Assembly (NCBI GenBank): GCA_021234155.1
Contig: JAJEKV010000010.1
Span: 5,864,871-5,928,870, forward strand
From: Isoetes taiwanensis
Lineage: Eukaryota > Streptophyta > Lycopodiopsida > Isoetales > Isoetaceae
DNA: 64,000 nucleotides
Reading direction: 5' to 3'
The notes beneath the pieces were generated by a model. It was not told where the DNA came from and made no database searches. It worked only from the letters and a program-made list of their open reading frames with translations. The translations under genes and the position numbers were made by a program. Below, piece after piece: positions 24,860 through 51,249 of the stretch (its first letter is position 1; every line of letters begins with the position of its first letter).

Positions 24860-27297
24860 ATTTCTCTTCAAAAGTAAAGGCAGCAGCAGAAAATGTGACT
24901 CCAAAGAAGAAGTCAAAACAATTAAAGCAGTAGAAACAGGTAAGAAAGCATTTTATTTCAGTGTACAGCAGCTGAGAAGTCCATGACATCCTATGTTTAC
25001 AGGTCCTAATGAAGAGGAATCTTCCGAGCATCAAGATCTAGAGCAGGATACTCTTAAGTTTGTGTCAAATCTTGCTTCTGACATAGTAAAGGAGGCTGAA
25101 TTTCATGACAATGAGAAATCAGGAGAGGTTGAAGACGAGGATTCTGGACCTAATAAGAATCTGAGTGAGGAAACCAAAAAAGAAGGGAAGGAAATGGATC
25201 GACTCAGAAAACGAGATCGCCAGAAGCGTAAGAATGATCTCTCCAGGTAACTTGATCTACATATCTTACATTTTTTTTTACATCTAGTATCCAAGTTAAA
25301 AACTTTAAAATAATATGGATAGTAGTAGACGAATGTAGATGATTTGTGTAAATGTACTGGTCATTGAACCCGGTGATCGGATTCTCGAATCTGGGCCATA
25401 TGATACCTTGCTCAACCGAATGATGAAGCTCAAGAAGGCTAGGATTTTCCCAGGATCTTTGCCTGAAATGGAGTGTTATTTATTTGAACAAGATGTGCTG
25501 GACATGGATGTGGGAAAAATTTTCAACCGGCATGTGGATATGTATGCCAGGTACTGGACTTTGAACTTGTTCATTTGTATGTGTAAGTCAAGTTAGTAAT
25601 TTTATCCTTTTCAACTTGTTATAGGTACCGCTGACTCGTGTTCCGGATGATAAAGAAGTAGGACGCCCGGGTTCTTCCCACCGGACAACTTCATGGAATT
25701 TGCAAAGATCTTGCAAAAGGCAAGCGAAAAAAGATAAATCTATATGGCGACCTCGGCGTGGAAGAGATATTGTAAAGGTAGCTCTTACTGAGGGGATAAA
25801 TTGGCTGAAGTGCGGATGGATCATGATTCCAATGCTATGTAGAGTTCTTGAACATCACACTTTGGGCATCTTCAACATGGCACTTACTAAGAGTAAGAAC
25901 ACCATCAACATTCAGATCTTCAATTCTGCCGAGGACATTGACGTTGACATGAGGTATTTTGTATTTCACATCTCCTTTTATTAATATTGAGTAGATTGGA
26001 TACCATGTTAGAAGCTTCTTTCATTCATTTGCTAAAAACTAGATCTGGTCTTTTGCAGGCTCCACATCCTCACTATGGCACGCGGTTGTGTCGAGTGTCC
26101 CACTTTTTTGAAGCATGGACAAAATCCTTCACCAGTTGTGAAGATTCATAAGTGTCCACAGCAGAAAGATGGGGATTCATGTGGCCTCTATGTTGCAGCT
26201 TATATGCAGAAGTTTGTAGAAACAATTGTGTGTGGTAAAACTACCAATGTGAGTGTCTCACTTCTTTTGTCTTGCAAACAAATAGTTTTTAATACTTATT
26301 ATGTAAGTATTGTTGCCACATTTGCAGATTACCCGAAAGTGGTTCTTGCCAAAGTATGCGGAGGATCGTCATGATGTTCTCATCCGAGCACTACTTCAGG
26401 AGTTAGACCACATTCACATCGCACCCGAAACCATTAGACCACCTGGTACTAATAAATATGGATGAGAAACAGCCTATCCCTATTGTCAATGCTAAACACT
26501 ATTTGATTATAAAATACACATTTTTTCATTGAATTTTAATGAATAAAATCTCTTTTTATTCAACTCCACCATACTTTATTGATAAATTGCATGTTCTTTC
26601 ATATCAGGTGTACAGAAAAGGTTGATAGTGTTTGATATCAATAATGTTTTGGCAAAACAAATACATAGGACTTTGGTATCAGATGATCAGCTAGTTGGAA
26701 ATTATGACATAATAGGTAAGAAAGTGTTGTTTTTAAGGCCCCACCTAGACGAATTCCTGGAATTTGTATTTGAACACTTTGAAGTAGGAATATGGCCATC
26801 AATAGCTCCATGGAACCTATCAAGAGTAGTGGATAAAATCTTCACAATGACGCAGATAAGGGACTTAAGGTTCACCTTTGATGGAAGCCATTGTTTGGAG
26901 CTGCCTTTCCAGATTGCAGCATGTGAAGACAAACCTTTGTATCTGAAGTCAATTGAGTTTATATGCGAGAAGTATCCAGACAGGAATGACAGCAACACAC
27001 TAATAGTAGACGACTCCGAGTACAAGATGCTCTTCAATCCCACCGAAAATTGCATATGCCCGCCTTCATGGCAGGAAAGTGATGTTGAAGACACAGGTCT
27101 CTTGACACTTCTGAAACCATGGCTAGAGGGTTTGTTGATAGCACCAGACCTGCAACAGTATGTGAAGCAGAATCCTTTACGCAATCCAACCGATGTACTA
27201 ACAACAGCTGTCTGGAGGCAAATGATTTCAGAGGGCTACAAGGACGGAGATGGCATGTCCAGGCTATGGACAAGCTGCAAGAAAGTAACATATTGAA
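24860..27297 (+). CDS. Ulp1-type cysteine protease fused to an FCP1-like domain (multi-exon, possibly broken)
   Basis: Putative exons on the plus strand: ~24872-24939, 25003-25246, ~25339-25550, ~25625-25953, 26059-26248, 26328-26445, 26608-27297. The second exon is acidic/basic and coiled ('EEESSEHQDLEQ', 'DRLRKRDRQKRK'). The protease part spans the exons ending at 26445 (C48 family; deSUMOylating proteases). A donor after CCTG at 26445 and an acceptor (TATCAG) before 26608 join the protease frame exactly to the FCP1 exon. Without that splice the protease ORF would stop at 26465. The joins 24939/25003, 25953/26059, 26248/26328 and 26445/26608 keep the frame. Around 25625-25800 frames conflict (three frames look coding in turn), so this copy may carry indels. 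Exon 25339-25550 could not be joined cleanly. It could also be a transposon-captured gene. Confidence 0.5.
26059..26445 (+). CDS. Ulp1 catalytic exons
   Basis: Two exons, 26059-26248 and 26328-26445, split by an 79-bp intron with GTGAGT donor and TTTGCAG acceptor. The first holds 'QQKDGDSCGLYVAAY', the Gln and Cys active-site block of C48 proteases. The second ends 'ITRKWFLPKYAEDRHDVLIR'. In the exon before (25840-25953) the catalytic His lies in 'EHHTLGIFN' (the usual HW is HH or HT here), and the usual Asp position reads Asn in 'IFNSAED'. The Asp-to-Asn change may lower activity. Confidence 0.7.
26608..27297 (+). CDS. FCP1/SCP-like (NLI-interacting factor) domain exon
   Basis: Single exon of ~229 codons after an acceptor at 26607. 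The HAD motif I reads 'FDINNVLA': the nucleophile Asp is kept, but the second Asp of DxDx(T/V) is Asn. Plant FCP1-homology proteins of the 'DLNGLL' type also have Asn there. 'FEVGIWPSIAPWNL' and 'LIVDDSEYK' match later conserved blocks. Ends with TGA at 27295-27297. By family it would be a Ser/Thr phosphatase-like or pseudophosphatase domain, nuclear in known cases. Joined in frame to the upstream protease exon, it suggests a fusion protein. Confidence 0.75.
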
Positions 27298-39116: not shown

Positions 39117-41147
39117 ATATTTACTGCACTGCAACAATGCCGTTATTTGCTGAAATCTTGAAACTGGCAGGGCCTTTGTAAGAATATCTGCCATTTGATC
39201 TACTGTGCTGACATAAGTTAGATGTACTTGATCTTTCTTCACCATGTCTCTAATAAAATGTACTTATAATTCAATGTGTTTTGATCTTTCATGTAAAATT
39301 GGGTTTTTTGTCATGGCAATGCAGCTAGTATTGTCACAATATATAATTGTTGGTCCTGTTTGTGTAAAACCTAACTCTTTCATAAGTCTTCTTTCCCAAA
39401 CTAACTCCTTTGTCAACAATGATGCTGAGTTTTGCATTTCCATGCAACTGGAGCTCCACCTAACAATACAACATATCCTAAAGTGGATTTTTGTTTGTCC
39501 AAGTCTCTTGCCCAGTCAGCATCACAATAGGCTTGCAATTGCAAGTTAGTATCATTGAATAATATGCCAAATTGTACTGTACCTTTCAAATACTTCAAAA
39601 TCCTTTTGGCTGCATTCCAGTGTGCTTTCGAGGGGTGGTTGTTATTGTATCACGCTAAGTATATTATTTACCAAATGCAATATCAGGTCGAGTACAGTTG
39701 GCTACATATGATAGACATCCAATCAAACTTCTATAGGGTACCCTTTCCATTTGCATACTTTCCTTTTCAGTTCTTGGACACATTTCACTAGATATTTTAT
39801 GACCAGGTACCATGGGAGTGGCTGCCACATTGCAATTTTCCATATGAAATCTCTTCAACATATTTTGGATGTGACCTTGCTGACTTAAGACAAGTATTTT
39901 CTGATCCCTGTTTCTGTATATATCAATCCCAAGAAATTTTTTTAACTCACCAAGGTCAGTCATTTGGAATCTTTTCTTTAGAATTTCCTTACAATGGTTT
40001 AATACTCTATTGCTTTTAGCCACCATAATATTGTCATCAACATACAATGCAATGATACACCATTCATCTCCAAAATTAAATCTATATAGATTCCCATCAC
40101 CATTAAGTTTTTTGAAACCTTGTTCTAACAAATATCCATCCATGCATTTGTACCATTCTCTAGGAAATTGTTTGAGACCATACACTGCTCTATTTAGTTT
40201 CCAAACTTTCCCTTTTTCTTCATCAAAGCCAGCTGCAGGTTTCAGATAAATTTCTTCTTCCAATTTGGCATTTAAAAATGCTGTGCTCACATCCATGTGA
40301 TGTATTTCAAAACTACATGCATTAGCAATGGCCAGAAGCATCCTTAAACTGTTTATCTTGACTAAAGGTGAAAAAGTTTCATCAAAGTCTTCACCCTTTT
40401 TCTGTGTAAACCCTTGTGCAACAAGCCTGGCTTTAATTTTGCTTGTTTTTATTCGATATATCCATTTATTTCCAACTATATTTTTGTTCAAGGGCATATC
40501 TACTACAGTGTAAGTACCTATTCTTTTAAAAGCCTTCATTTCTTCTTCCATTGCATGTCTCCAGTGTTTTTCATTAATGTCACTTATGGCTTCATTATAA
40601 CTTTGGGGTACTTTATCAGATTCAAGCACTAGTATGTCAAATAATGTATGAATCTCACCTTCAATTGGCTTAAATCTTTTGCTTTTTTCCACCTCAGTTC
40701 TGCCATGCAGTTCCACGTCATGTTTAGCTTCATCTGCTAATATTTGAGCTTCTGTCCTTTTTGCTTTCCTTTTGGGTTTGTCTGGCTTAGTAACTTCTTC
40801 CTCTTCCATTTCAATGCTTTGATTCATCCTAGGTTCAATTTCTGGCTCTGGGGCTATTTCAGACTCATTATCAGAGTCACTCATATCCATTTGATCTTTA
40901 ATTCTCTCCTCCTTCTCATTTAGATTTTGTTTTATTTCTATCAACTCTTCTTCTTTTTTGCATTCAGACATATCTTCTGAATTTATCTTAGGAATCTTCC
41001 TATAGAATTCTTTCTCATTGAAAACAACATGTCTACTAATAATGATTTTCCTTCTTGCAGGATCATATAATCTGAATGCCTTAGAATTTGAGTCATACCC
41101 TACAAGATATGCTATGTAGCCTCTATCATCCAATTTTTTTTTTAATT
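39117..41147 (-). pseudogene. pol: Ty1-copia pol remnant (integrase tail, RT, RNase H)
   Basis: ORF 41133-39664 (489 aa) starts in the integrase C-terminus ('LVGYDSNSKAFRLYDP'). It passes an acidic linker ('DMSDSDNESE') into the reverse transcriptase: 'WRHAMEEEMKAF', 'AFLNAKLEEEIYLKP', catalytic 'YVDD' near 40045, and 'TRPDIAF' at its end. Frameshifts and stops follow at 39600-39670. RNase H follows (39598-39413, 'YCDADWARD') and continues with further breaks to ~39120. Gag, protease, most of integrase and the primer site are absent: the deletion joins a poly(A) of the integrase straight to the 5' LTR. It cannot move by itself. Confidence 0.85.
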
Positions 41148-46001: not shown

Positions 46002-48605
46002 TTACATCTGCAAAGCTTTGATATTGGGAAAAGTTCCATGTGTGAGATGATCATGAACTGTTTTAAGCTTGGAGCAGGCCTTTGCTCTAGGACAATGAGA
46101 AATGTAAACACCTCCCAAGTTATTGGCCTTGATATATGCGACTTTCTCTTTAATAGACCGAGCATTATCATAAACACAAATCAGCCTTTTCTCTGGATGA
46201 TAAGCATATGGTGCTTTAGCCTCGTCGTCCCACCGTTCCACAAATCCATGGTCGACCAATTCACTTGGACAAAGGCCATGTATATCACCTGGCAGGCCTG
46301 GCTGTGCCGGCTTGCCAATCTCATCAGCATTGTGAAATCCCCAAATTAAATCAGCAATGCCTATAAAGAGTTTAGAAGAATCAACCCCTCTAGACATGTA
46401 GTATTCAACAGCTTTAGCATAACTCCACTTTTGATGGGAACTTGAATACAAATTGGTTCTATGGTAAGCTGTTTCTTCGAATGTCATATGACCCAACTGA
46501 ATTTGATCGACTAGATGGGAGATCCTTTCTATTGGCCATTTGGCAAGCATGCCAATTACAAAACCTGGAGGCAATGCGCTTCGCAGCCCCTCAAGCACAA
46601 GTATAAAGTTTTCCTTATCTTCCGGTCTCGGAATATTGCTGAGAAACATCCAGTCAATTAGAAGGCCATTGAAAATTGGATAAGCTCTGCACAACTCTAA
46701 CACAGATTCGATAAACCTTGTGCGATTTTCATCGGTAGAGAATGCATCTGAAAATGGCCTTCGTATGCAAAAAGAGAGATTAAGCTTCTTGCCTTGATCT
46801 ACAACTAGCTTTTTGAATTGTCCAAAAATTCCCAAATCCTGCTGAAGATTTCCAGACAACTGGTTTTGGGGTTCAACGCCTGTACCAATAAAGGGGTTAC
46901 CTACAATATGCCAAGGATGCGTGAATTTTATCTGCCCAGAGGATTCAACACTCAGACCGGACAATTCAATGTCGACCAGACTATCTATGGGTAGATGTCT
47001 AACTCCTTTCCCAAAAAACTGTGTCGAAAAACAGTAAATTGCTCTCCTTCCAGTGGGGGTAGAGATCCGAGGCATCATCTGAAACTCAACAGTGGGGTAG
47101 AGAGTTTTTGTATACATTCTGAAATTCGACAGTACTCTCTCATCAATGTAACTTGGCACTTCATCTGGTATGATCAAAATGCTTTCCTTGAAAGCCCATA
47201 GATGGTCACAAATATCCTCAAAACTAGGACGTTTGTCCGGGTCTACTTCTAGGCAATTAGATATGATCGTGTAGAGAGGGGTAGAGAGGCCCTGTTTTAA
47301 TAAGTCTTCCATTATAGCTGAGTTAGGGGGCTTTCCACTAAGGATCTCCATGCAGACAAGGCCATAGCTATACACGTCAATCTTTTTAGAGTAGTTTCCT
47401 TCATCTCCTGCAGCCATCTCTGGGGCCATGTACAATGTCGAACCTTTCTTCTTTGTGTGAATCTCATCTCTGGTCTGAAAGTTTGCTTTAGTTTCCCCAA
47501 AATCAGCAAGTTTGATAGTCAACTTCCCAGCCGCTGTCTTCACCAAGATATTGTTGGGCTTTATGTCCCTGTGAACCACATTCACTCTATGTAAATCCCT
47601 CAATCCTTTGGCAATTTGGAGCATAAGATCAGTTGATTCATACACGGAAAATGGAGTAACTGTTGGATTTTTCTTTTTCTTATCCTCTATAAGCTTTTTT
47701 AGATCCATGTCCATGAGCTCCATAACAATGATTTTCCTGCTGCCATGGCCATCAAATTCAGCTTCTGACTGCCCGAATACCTGTACTATGTGGGAGCTAT
47801 TTGCAGCCAACAATTCTTTAACCAAAGTATACTCAGATTCAAAGTTGTCATCGTAAAAGAACTGTTTAATAGCTACTGGTATTGTTTCACACCAAATCCC
47901 TTTGCTGACACTTCCATAACTGCCACTTCCCAAACACATCCCTACTTTTAGATCATTATATGCAATACTGAATGCAAATGGATGCAAAGCTCTCCCGTCC
48001 ACCAACATTTCAAGATAATGTTTAAAACGGTTCTTCATGTTAAAATTTTTAACCCAGCCCAAACTACTACTGTCTCGCGTATGGGCTGATGTGAGGGCAT
48101 CCTGGAGCATGCTACAATCTAACTTCACTTTATCTTGAAGTTGCTTAATAAGTTTCTTTTTATCTGGTTTATCAACTCGGTCAAACTCCAGAATACCTGC
48201 TATCAACTTATTCATCATGCTAGAGTATCTTTCTACATCATCAACAATCTCACAAAACTCACCTGCACTGCAGAAAATAATAAGATTTGATTTTGCGAAG
48301 TCTTTCTCTCCACATCTCTGAAGGAGTCGTAGGCCCCTTTCCAAAACTCCAAGCAGCTCTTTCCCCACTGCCTCTGCATCTGCAGACTTTGTGTTTATTT
48401 CTTCTCGAAATCGACCCATCCACCATAATTGCACATAATGTGCTGTGTAAACTACAAGGATTTTAAGAACATCACATTTCTTTTGATGAATCAGCTTCCT
48501 GCTGCTAAATGTTGTATTAATTTCGTGATTGAGAGCAAGGATATCAGCAACCCAAACAGGTCGAATCTGCTCCATGGATCTAAGGTAAGGTGCCATCAAT
48601 GGCAC
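46002..48605 (-). CDS. Protein kinase with N-terminal helical domain and C-terminal GH18-like domain
   Basis: Intronless ORF of 867 codons. The second Met (codon 11, 48575) is a likely start because the paralogue at 53943 begins there. Residues ~12-200 are helical and may be a four-helix bundle like plant MLKL/RPW8-type domains (inference). Residues ~221-475 are a Ser/Thr kinase: Gly loop LGSGSYGSV (225-233), Lys247 in VAIK, HRD 345-347, DFG 368-370, APE 394-396, so it should be active. Residues ~515-850 resemble chitinase family GH18. The DxxDxDxE box reads FNGLLIDWM (645-653): one Asp remains and the catalytic Glu is Met. The end 'AYHPEKRLICVYDNARSI' and 'KANNLGGVYI' match the GH18 C-terminus. 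No signal peptide or membrane segment is evident, so both domains would be intracellular. Likely a signalling kinase with a sugar-binding-like or scaffolding tail; the ligand is unknown. Confidence 0.85.
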   Translation of the reverse strand: MPLMAPYLRSMEQIRPVWVADILALNHEINTTFSSRKLIHQKKCDVLKILVVYTAHYVQLWWMGRFREEINTKSADAEAVGKELLGVLERGLRLLQRCGEKDFAKSNLIIFCSAGEFCEIVDDVERYSSMMNKLIAGILEFDRVDKPDKKKLIKQLQDKVKLDCSMLQDALTSAHTRDSSSLGWVKNFNMKNRFKHYLEMLVDGRALHPFAFSIAYNDLKVGMCLGSGSYGSVSKGIWCETIPVAIKQFFYDDNFESEYTLVKELLAANSSHIVQVFGQSEAEFDGHGSRKIIVMELMDMDLKKLIEDKKKKNPTVTPFSVYESTDLMLQIAKGLRDLHRVNVVHRDIKPNNILVKTAAGKLTIKLADFGETKANFQTRDEIHTKKKGSTLYMAPEMAAGDEGNYSKKIDVYSYGLVCMEILSGKPPNSAIMEDLLKQGLSTPLYTIISNCLEVDPDKRPSFEDICDHLWAFKESILIIPDEVPSYIDERVLSNFRMYTKTLYPTVEFQMMPRISTPTGRRAIYCFSTQFFGKGVRHLPIDSLVDIELSGLSVESSGQIKFTHPWHIVGNPFIGTGVEPQNQLSGNLQQDLGIFGQFKKLVVDQGKKLNLSFCIRRPFSDAFSTDENRTRFIESVLELCRAYPIFNGLLIDWMFLSNIPRPEDKENFILVLEGLRSALPPGFVIGMLAKWPIERISHLVDQIQLGHMTFEETAYHRTNLYSSSHQKWSYAKAVEYYMSRGVDSSKLFIGIADLIWGFHNADEIGKPAQPGLPGDIHGLCPSELVDHGFVERWDDEAKAPYAYHPEKRLICVYDNARSIKEKVAYIKANNLGGVYISHCPRAKACSKLKTVHDHLTHGTFPNIKALQM

Positions 48606-48739: not shown

Positions 48740-51249
48740 TAAACCGGCAACAAGAATGATAAACAGGTAGGCTGAGGCAGCAACAATGATAAACCGCCAC
48801 AGAGGCACTGACCGAAGGGATCTGTCCTTCAAATCGGCCTGTTTGTGGCTCACGCACAGCAGCAGCAACAGAATTTGAAGGATCAAACACCTGTTTGTGG
48901 CTTACAAAAGAAAGCTTACACAAGTCGGATGTGATTTCCTTTAAGATAAAATACACACAGCAACGGATTTTGAATGGAAAAAATGGAAAAGTTAAACTAG
49001 GAGAAGGCAATAAAGCACCAAAAACTGAAAAAATAGGCTCTGGTGGGCTGCCGCTGCAGCATGCCGAAGGACATAAATTGCTCAAGCTCCAACGGCCAGA
49101 TTCGTGATAAGCTCTAGCAGCCCGATTTCTTAGCCAGATTCCTCAGCCGGATCTGAGGATTTCTTAGCCAGATTCCTCAGCCAGATTTCCAATCGGCCTT
49201 CCAATTTGTGCAAGAGATTGTCCTTCCAATCGGCCTTCCCTACTCCCTACTTTGTTCGGCTTGTGGAAGAGTGGAAGAACATCTCTCTTTCGTGGATTGA
49301 TTGCTTGTGCTCTGCAAGATCTTGCTGCTACAACGAATCAGAGGATTGAATCAGAGGCAAAATTGCCTCGGACCTCCCGGTTAAAAGGTCAAAACCCCAC
49401 GTTCGCCCATTACGCCAAAAAAATGGGCTCGTCCTGATGGGCTCGCCCATTTATTAGGCCTAACGGGCTCTCATGGGGTTTAACCCCTTCTTCACTGCTC
49501 AGATTTAACAATGGCTCATTGGAATCTCCAAGACTTGCCCTTTCCAATGACCCTAAAACCGCCCACTCTGGTGCCCCATAATAGGGCTGGCCACATGATC
49601 ACTTTTTCTCTGATTCTGATGGGAAAACGGAGGTGGAGGCCTCCGTTCGAGGTCGGGGCAGTTTTGAATGTTCCATTCCGGCAGGGGGCGGACCAAAAAC
49701 ATTTAGGCCCTTTTTCCACAGCAGTCTTATTTTATGGTTGTCTCGTTTTTATAAGACACCCTTTTGAGCTCCATGTCAGCTCCATGTAATACATAAGACA
49801 CCTCCTGAAAAAATCGATTTTCCATTACTGAAATATAAGACATGTGCTATTGAGATAAGACCTGTCTTATAATCTAGCTTTTCCACAGACCACCATTTTC
49901 CAGATTTTTTCGAATCTTGGAGCAAAGAGGTTGCTATAGCAATCTATCTGGAGATATCTAGAGATACTAGGAGAAATCCACCAGGAGCAATCCACCAGAA
50001 GCAAAGAATCGAAGCAACCTACCAGGAGCAATCTATTAGGAGCAAGAATCAAAGCTTTTGTAAACCGATCTGTTTGCAATCCGACCTATTTGATGCAACT
50101 ATGGCAATCCCAGAGCAAGAATAAAAGCTTCATGGATCACTGGAACAGGGCTTTCAAGCCCAGAGCAGAAAACTAAACCAAATCTGAAATCAAAGCTTTT
50201 GTAAACCGATCTGTTCACAATCCGACCTGTTTGATGCAACTATGGCAATCCCAGAGCAAGAATAGAAGCTTCATGGATCACCGGAACAGGGCTTTCAAGT
50301 CCAGAGCGGAAATCTAAATCGGAACAAGGCTTTCAAGCCTGTAAATCCACTTGTTTGATGCAGCTATGGCTTCTTTGCAAAGCAGGCTCTTTCAAAAAAA
50401 CCGAATCGAACAGGTGCTTCAAAAATCTGAAAAACAGATCAAATCTTTACAATCGAATCTGCAAATAGGTTGTTTCAAAAAACCAAATCCAACCACAGGT
50501 GCTTAAAAAATCGAATTGAAGAACCTAAATCTGCTTCAAAAACCTTTTGACCGATCATCTTTCGATTCGCATGCTTCTAATTTTTCCTCTATTTTGCGAC
50601 AGCCTTGAATTGCGGCGAACTTGACCTCTGATTGGTTATGATTCGTTGTCTTATTTTGTGGCGGGGGATTTCCCCCGGAAGAAAATAAGACATTAGAGTT
50701 GTACGGCATGCATTTAAGACATGTCTGAAAAGTTGTCGTGGAAAAACTATGGTGTCACATTTGCTTATGTGGCCCAATAATAATCAGCCAAATTTAAGAC
50801 ATATGCGCCATGGGAAAAGGGCCTTAGACCGATCTGTTGTTCTTCCTCTCTTCCGCAATTCTTCCCCCTCTGTTTTGCCACTCCTGCCCTCTCTCGTATC
50901 CCCTCTCGTATGAAATTGATATACGGAAGTGGAGGTCAGAAAAATCTCATGTGGCCACCCCTAATGGCTCACTTAAGTATCCCTATTATGGTTTTTAGTC
51001 GTAAGGTGGTCAAAATCACACGTATCAATATTCAAATTAAAGCTGTCAGTGAGCTCTTTGCAATGATATCTGTCCAGTAGCTAGTCGCCTCCCGTGGAAA
51101 AATAGTTTTTGATAAACATAAAAATAGCAAAATTGGCAGCTCTTGGCCATTCAAACTAAAAGTGCAAATAAGAAGCTCAAATGGAAAATCTTAGCCCTTC
51201 AATCGAGCCATCAGGTGTGCCATAGGGCACCTCAGCCGATGAAGGGCAC
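48740..51249. other. Kinase 5' flank and non-coding repeats
   Basis: No gene recognised. Holds a ~40-bp tandem pair ('gatttcttagccagattcctcagcc', 49118 and 49158) and a longer direct repeat at 50055-50315. Short ORFs lack domains. Confidence 0.45.
50055..50315. repeat. Tandem repeat, ~138 bp unit
   Basis: Two units beginning 'cttttgtaaaccgatctgtt', including 'tttgatgcaactatggcaa' and 'gcttcatggatcac.ggaac'. A partial third copy follows near 50340. Confidence 0.8.

Follow-up and report, generated by a model that had tools for sequence, protein, structure and literature searches.

Wheat kinase fusion proteins (KFPs) combine a fused domain thought to perceive effectors with a kinase thought to signal, and the named cloned resistance proteins of this kind come from wheat and its relatives (excerpts of PMC10951266). 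Among them, Pm13 of Aegilops/wheat joins an MLKL-type N-terminus (MLKL_NTD) to an intact kinase, in contrast to the MLKLs of animals and Arabidopsis, which are pseudokinases (excerpts of PMC10951266). Here we describe a gene of the lycophyte Isoetes taiwanensis, located in a 64,000-nucleotide stretch of contig JAJEKV010000010.1 (hereafter the window), whose product runs in a single frame from a helical N-terminus through a Ser/Thr kinase to a GH18 (chitinase-type) barrel devoid of the catalytic Glu. With a probability of roughly 0.45, we read it as one of an expanded family of intracellular kinase-fusion receptors of this lycophyte, in which the pseudo-chitinase barrel would serve as sensor.

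The quillwort protein resembles Pm13 and the other KFPs in its putative MLKL-type N-terminus and its catalytically intact kinase, and the wider KFP class in carrying an extra fused domain (excerpts of PMC10951266). A KFP is defined by one kinase that has its catalytic residues and is joined to a non-kinase domain or to a second kinase, and the quillwort protein fits this definition. It differs in the degenerate GH18 barrel added after the kinase, in its lycophyte host and in being known here from sequence; no chitinase-type fused domain is described for KFPs in the excerpts of PMC10951266. Like nucleotide-binding leucine-rich repeat receptors (NLRs) with integrated decoys (excerpts of PMC11218826), it couples a signalling protein to a domain from elsewhere that presumably acts as bait, but its signalling core is a kinase. 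Tobacco CHRK1, to which the initial annotation had compared it, likewise holds a chitinase-related domain and a kinase in one protein, with the chitinase part extracellular (excerpts of PMC4707873), whereas in the quillwort protein the kinase comes first and the CHRK1 layout of extracellular chitinase part, membrane segment and kinase is absent. Moreover, the nearest structures of a stand-alone relative of the barrel, locus L048, were bacterial and fungal chitinases among the best 60 of 135 matches. The reversed order and the missing membrane segment noted at first therefore stand, while the likeness itself is an analogy, and a relationship to CHRK1 is ruled out by order, location and GH18 type. 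No report of an MLKL_N-kinase-GH18 architecture turned up among the papers listed by searches of the open-licence literature, in which PMC12512272 and PMC11218826 deal with ferns and lycophytes (excerpts of both).

Architecture of the gene and its paralogues

The open reading frame at 46002-48605 of the window, on the minus strand, comprises 867 codons when read from a GTG at 48605, as initially annotated. Since the paralogues have a start in common, at or close to ME..., but diverge upstream of it, the gene likely begins at the ATG at 48575 and would encode 857 amino acids, which the residue numbers used here follow (Table 1). In the Pfam scan the kinase (E 1.6e-40) and GH18 (E 4.9e-32) matches of the window protein were both far over their cut-offs, and the domain order proposed from the letters alone was supported; residues 1-200 had no Pfam match, NB-ARC, leucine-rich repeat (LRR) and carbohydrate-binding module (CBM) domains were not found, and NCBIfam gave nothing above a cut-off. 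The highest 19-residue Kyte-Doolittle mean was 1.41, against a usual level of 1.6 for a membrane helix, and the first 30 residues reached at most 0.54. The protein hence has no membrane segment by hydropathy and its N-terminus is not hydrophobic, in line with the earlier reading, and it looks like an intracellular fusion with an apparently active kinase in what is indeed a seed-free plant.

Table 1. Features of the kinase-GH18 gene, in window positions and residues of the 857-residue protein.
Feature	Position	Strand	Residues	Basis or remark
Coding sequence	46002..48575	(-)	857 codons + stop	likely start ATG, MEQIRPVWV...; start compared with paralogues
N-terminal helical domain, putatively of MLKL_N type via bridging paralogue	47976..48575	(-)	1-200	low-confidence helices; profile link; no direct Pfam match
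Ser/Thr protein kinase domain	47196..47942	(-)	212-460	PF00069, 139.6 bits
GH18-like TIM barrel, catalytic Glu lost	46005..47069	(-)	503-857	PF00704, 112.3 bits, matched residues 571-825; model and Foldseek
Former catalytic box NGLLIDWM, M643 at Glu position	46647..46670	(-)	636-643	sequence, motif table
End of barrel strand 6, former Met-x-Tyr-Asp, variable among paralogues	46482..46493	(-)	695-698	motif table, variability ranking
End of barrel strand 7, former pocket Tyr and Arg, variable among paralogues	46341..46361	(-)	739-745	motif table, variability ranking

The MLKLs of animals and Arabidopsis place a helical N-terminal domain before a kinase-fold domain. The quillwort protein departs from their pseudokinase end, as Lys237, Glu248, Asp337, Asn342 and the DFG motif (358-360) are all intact, together with G216, G218 and K339, and the kinase described in the initial annotation is thus complete. 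Lys237 (of VAIK), Glu248, the HRD Asp337, Lys339, Asn342 and the APE motif were invariant in 24 of 24 aligned members, as were G216 and G218, with D358 and G360 nearly so.

A search of the I. taiwanensis genome (1,658,258,908 bases in 1110 contigs) with the window protein returned 72 matching pieces, from which 38 loci were fetched, the window gene being L001. Fifteen of the 38 (L001-L004, L007-L009, L012-L015, L023 and L025-L027) hold all three parts in one frame, with GH18 running to or near its end, and intact paralogues with the same order sit on different contigs. Four places lie within 41 kb on contig C1106, two within 8 kb on C1090 and three within 93 kb on C1110. The window gene is a member of a large, expanded, partly clustered and fast-evolving family. 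A single freak gene is ruled out by the many paralogues, and a contaminant by their presence on many large contigs of the same genome. The other fetched loci are broken by frameshifts or stops, shortened, or GH18-less: the barrel is shortened in L016, L018, L037, L020, L036 and L038 (under the Pfam cut-off in L016 and L018), a second kinase follows the first in L017, L019, L021 and L022, and nothing GH18-like is in frame in L028 and L030-L033, the Pfam check of these C-terminal variants having covered L017, L019, L022, L030 and L033.

Two further observations concern individual members. L017, L019, L021 and L022, in which another kinase comes after the family N-terminus and kinase, are tandem kinase proteins in a lycophyte. 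In L025 the residues from about 526 to 544, between kinase and GH18, are strongly hydrophobic (hydropathy of 3.01) and resemble a membrane segment; a repeated proline-rich motif lies on either side of them.

Synonymous difference in GH18 was compared with that in N-terminus plus kinase in 12 pairs of paralogues (p below 0.05), and seven of them differed between modules, in both directions. GH18 was lower in L007/L008 (0.048 vs. 0.271, p=2.5e-12), L004/L009, L018/L037 and L012/L014, and higher in L001/L002, L020/L036 and L024/L026; the remaining five showed no difference at that level. As the modules of single pairs differ in synonymous divergence, gene conversion or module exchange among copies would be the natural reading.

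The GH18 barrel: lost catalysis, variable mouth and origin

In the window copy the catalytic Glu of the DxxDxDxE box is replaced by Met (N636-G-L-L-I-D641-W-M643), and the copy has also lost the beta-3 Gly-Gly, beta-6 Met/Tyr/Asp, beta-7 Tyr/Arg and beta-8 Trp, retaining the Asp and Trp directly preceding the Glu position. An active chitinase is ruled out by the loss of Glu and of most substrate residues, as the initial annotation had expected of hydrolysis. The GH18 part was folded alone with AlphaFold on a four-row alignment, the three added relatives coming from bacterial and viral contigs. The resulting model arranges its strands and helices in the order expected for a TIM barrel (mean predicted local distance difference test, pLDDT, 59.5; predicted template-modelling score, pTM, 0.66), and in Foldseek it matched GH18 structures (probability 1.00, E about 1e-18, TM-score about 0.6). 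With both the order and the matches at hand, the barrel initially foreseen around residues 515-850 is recovered at medium model confidence.

The Glu is kept in both stand-alone genes and both bacterial rows of the motif table, yet in only one of 22 fused rows, L016, whose shrunken barrel falls below the Pfam cut-off; the other 21 carry nine residue types at that position, and in a wider listing 23 of 24 members lack the Glu. The beta-8 Trp is retained in two of the 22 fused rows, the Asp and the Trp beside the Glu position in 17 each. When twelve motif positions were ranked for variability against 316 well-filled columns in 19 of the 22 fused rows (L016, L018 and L037 left out; the beta-6 Tyr and Asp unranked, being a gap in most rows), five reached extreme percentiles, namely the beta-6 Met (99.7), beta-7 Tyr (99.4), beta-7 Arg (98.4), Glu (95.9) and beta-8 Trp (93.4). 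Six were conserved, with percentiles between 17.7 and 28.8; these are the three residues of the beta-3 Gly-Gly-Trp, the position that opens the box, and the Asp and Trp next to the Glu. The second box Asp, already Val or Ile in the stand-alone genes, ranked at 69.6. Judged against the GH18 model, the other columns among the 25 most variable were mostly ends of further barrel strands. Because five motif positions rank extreme while six stay conserved, part of the catalytic mouth is the most variable part of the GH18 domain, with the frame retained. The initial annotation had looked for the same Glu loss under purifying selection, and among paralogues this holds for the kinase motifs and much of the barrel, which are conserved, but not for several pocket positions, which are hypervariable; the Glu itself has no fixed replacement.

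Pairwise counts point to the same region. In eight pairs picked by hand, nonsynonymous divergence (dN) on the barrel face was 1.66 times that of the rest and synonymous divergence (dS) 1.12 times; among circular shifts of the mask, six of 357 reached this dN ratio and eight the dN/dS ratio. Under a mask of enzyme motifs, placed on those of L048 alone, dN was 0.216 vs. 0.120 in the rest (1.8 times, matched by 11 of 5000 random masks), and dN/dS was 0.88 (1.04 with whole-domain dS) vs. 0.59. The strongest pair, L007/L008, had 20 changes in 102 pocket sites vs. 30 in 762. At the amino-acid level the face/rest ratio was at least 1.48 in nine of 11 fused pairs (0.98 and 0.71 in the other two), as compared to 0.79 to 1.09 in five stand-alone or bacterial pairs, a contrast that is only indicative since the enzyme-type pairs are far more divergent. 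The change therefore appears to be focused on the pocket and either relaxed or diversifying, with positive selection unproven.

As for the source of the barrel, the stand-alone GH18 genes L048:250-1527(+) and L049:214-1377(-) have boxes of the form N-G-V-V/I-I-D-W-E with D-W-E kept, while most other GH18 genes read in the genome show D-G-L-D-L-D-W-E and D-G-V-D-L-D-I-E types. No signal peptide was seen by eye at the start of either, an upstream exon being possible, and the tail of L048 has a partial CBM5/12 chitin-binding match (32.8 bits, cut-off 26.2). Paenibacillus ChiW and fungal chitinases were the nearest solved structures of L048, and no plant class V chitinase was named, among its best 60 of 135 matches. 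Both genes may encode chitinases of bacterial or fungal type that reside inside plant cells. A scan of bacterial genomes for GH18 gave two distant genes, and searches of viral contigs mostly nothing, with two distant loci in one and one of these two once more in another; the source may be an old plant gene or a horizontal transfer.

In a GH18 tree with L048, L049 and the two bacterial rows, the 22 fused rows formed one clade (support 97/93), L049 adjoining it and L048 falling on the bacterial side. Tree and motif table used 22 fused rows, some of them pieces of fused genes (L034, L050, L055, L056), and left out L005, L010, L011 and L024 (broken), L020, L036 and L038 (shortened), and L006, L029 and L058. 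In a tree of N-terminus plus kinase, the relatives with a second kinase or with no GH18 in frame were interspersed among the GH18 carriers, with weak deepest forks (72/90). The simplest reading of these sequences would be a single fusion event, after which C-termini were lost or replaced, although several fusions from near-identical sources may have occurred.

Proposed function and competing explanations

We infer an immune role for the family. On this view the barrel, of chitinase descent, would act as an integrated decoy and sensor, its mouth binding a changing set of ligands; pathogen proteins directed at plant chitinases are the likeliest of these. Once a ligand is bound, the freed kinase would phosphorylate itself or its partners and allow the helical N-terminus to assemble at membranes and to set off defence or cell death, a scheme of sensor, relay and executor modelled on wheat KFPs such as Pm13. 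Somewhat more tentative than the receptor reading as such is the broader proposal that a separate class of intracellular immune receptors, the pseudo-chitinase kinases, arose within the lycophytes. Each would combine an executor of MLKL type with an active kinase and a chitinase-derived barrel whose active site became a diversifying recognition surface, and recognition modules would pass between paralogues much as in NLR clusters. If true, an independent, expanded lycophyte set would suggest that a kinase joined to a worn-out enzyme as sensor recurs as an immune design, and would offer a TIM barrel whose catalytic mouth turned into a variable recognition site. Chitinases being likely targets of fungal and oomycete effectors, the family would also open a direct route in the search for effectors that target a plant lineage of great age.

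The executor part of this proposal depends on the N-terminus, which the initial annotation had called MLKL-like. A related kinase frame (kinase by eye) with no GH18 in its frame, L145 (G000:C1049), matches the profile of the family N-termini with 87 bits, and its own N-terminus passes PF22215 MLKL_N (31.9 bits, E 1.1e-7, cut-off 27) and also DUF7792 (33.1 bits, cut-off 27). Because L145 bridges the family profile and the Pfam model, an MLKL-type N-terminus is supported by homology at one remove, though direct matching did not bear it out. DUF1221, the Arabidopsis-type N-terminus, was considered and set aside, no match having been found among the family N-termini or in the I. taiwanensis genome, although the genome search gave no match in any control genome either.

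DUF7792 also appears elsewhere. The N-terminus of another frame, G000:C226:110095-110418, passes this model, and in L142, Arm-repeat-like by eye, the DUF7792 domain passes MLKL_N as well.

Several results weigh against the sensor-relay-executor reading. None of 28 family N-termini matched MLKL_N in a direct Pfam scan at E 1 or better; their best weak match was to PhoU, in one member (E 0.0023), followed by DUF7792 in three (best E 0.044) and MCAfunc in one (0.09), and the remainder were at chance level. The single-sequence model of the N-terminus was too poor for a test of fold (pLDDT 47.5) and gave no PDB match at E 0.001 with Foldseek, and a profile search of the PDB with the N-terminus reached E 0.33 at best. 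One member of the 24 aligned, L027, has lost the DFG motif, and several copies of the family are broken. In the barrel, seven of the twelve ranked motif positions, the Asp and Trp beside Glu included, are not hypervariable, the barrel-face mask derives from a model of medium confidence, its first strand having been placed manually, and two of the eight pairs, L004/L009 and L012/L014, show no pocket excess. Since pocket dN/dS (0.88 to 1.04) is not clearly above 1, relaxed constraint could explain the change.

The last two of these points also speak for the best surviving alternative, in which the barrel is a pseudoenzyme scaffold that dimerises the protein or regulates the kinase, its freed pocket drifting and reading no ligand. 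The persistence of the shortened barrels and of members with no GH18 in frame is likewise consistent with a scaffold. Pure drift, however, sits poorly with five pocket positions among the most variable GH18 columns while the Asp and Trp of the same strand stay, and the expansion, clustering and module differences of the family suit a sensor better; we regard the scaffold as unlikely, if clearly worth retaining.

Considerably less probable is an intracellular glycan sensor, that is a chi-lectin on a kinase that binds but does not cleave chitooligosaccharides or other N-acetylglucosamine glycans. The chi-lectins, Ym1 and YKL-40 among them, share the GH18 fold without the catalytic Glu, and Ym1, a mammalian chitinase-like lectin, was the first Foldseek match of the GH18 model; the partial CBM5/12 module of L048 would also agree with sugar binding. 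Nevertheless, chi-lectins are secreted, stand-alone proteins that keep their sugar-binding residues, whereas the quillwort pocket is largely rewritten and its barrel fused to a kinase. The beta-8 Trp, beta-7 Tyr/Arg and beta-6 Met/Tyr/Asp are markers of GH18 sugar binding, and all of them are lost in the window copy. A constant sugar ligand should moreover keep the pocket constant, and the window protein itself has no CBM. The initial annotation had allowed for a sugar or a protein ligand; as most GH18 residues that hold chitin are gone, a chitin-type sugar appears unlikely for this copy.

That the frame is a pseudogene, an assembly error or a chance read-through is very improbable: several relatives are frame-shifted or contain stops and dN/dS by pair spans 0.38 to 1.47 over N-terminus, kinase and GH18, but the 857 codons are open, same-order paralogues are intact on different contigs, the catalytic residues of the kinase are invariant, and of the 15 pairs counted, all but L001/L002 (1.47) had a kinase dN/dS of at most 0.83.

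Elsewhere in the window, upstream of the gene, a 141-base unit occurs about twice in tandem at 50047-50318 (93% matches). By eye, an open frame at 39664-41133 (-) resembles a fragment of a Copia-type retrotransposon polyprotein with reverse transcriptase, and another at 26622-27296 (+), again by eye only, a HAD/FCP1-type phosphatase.

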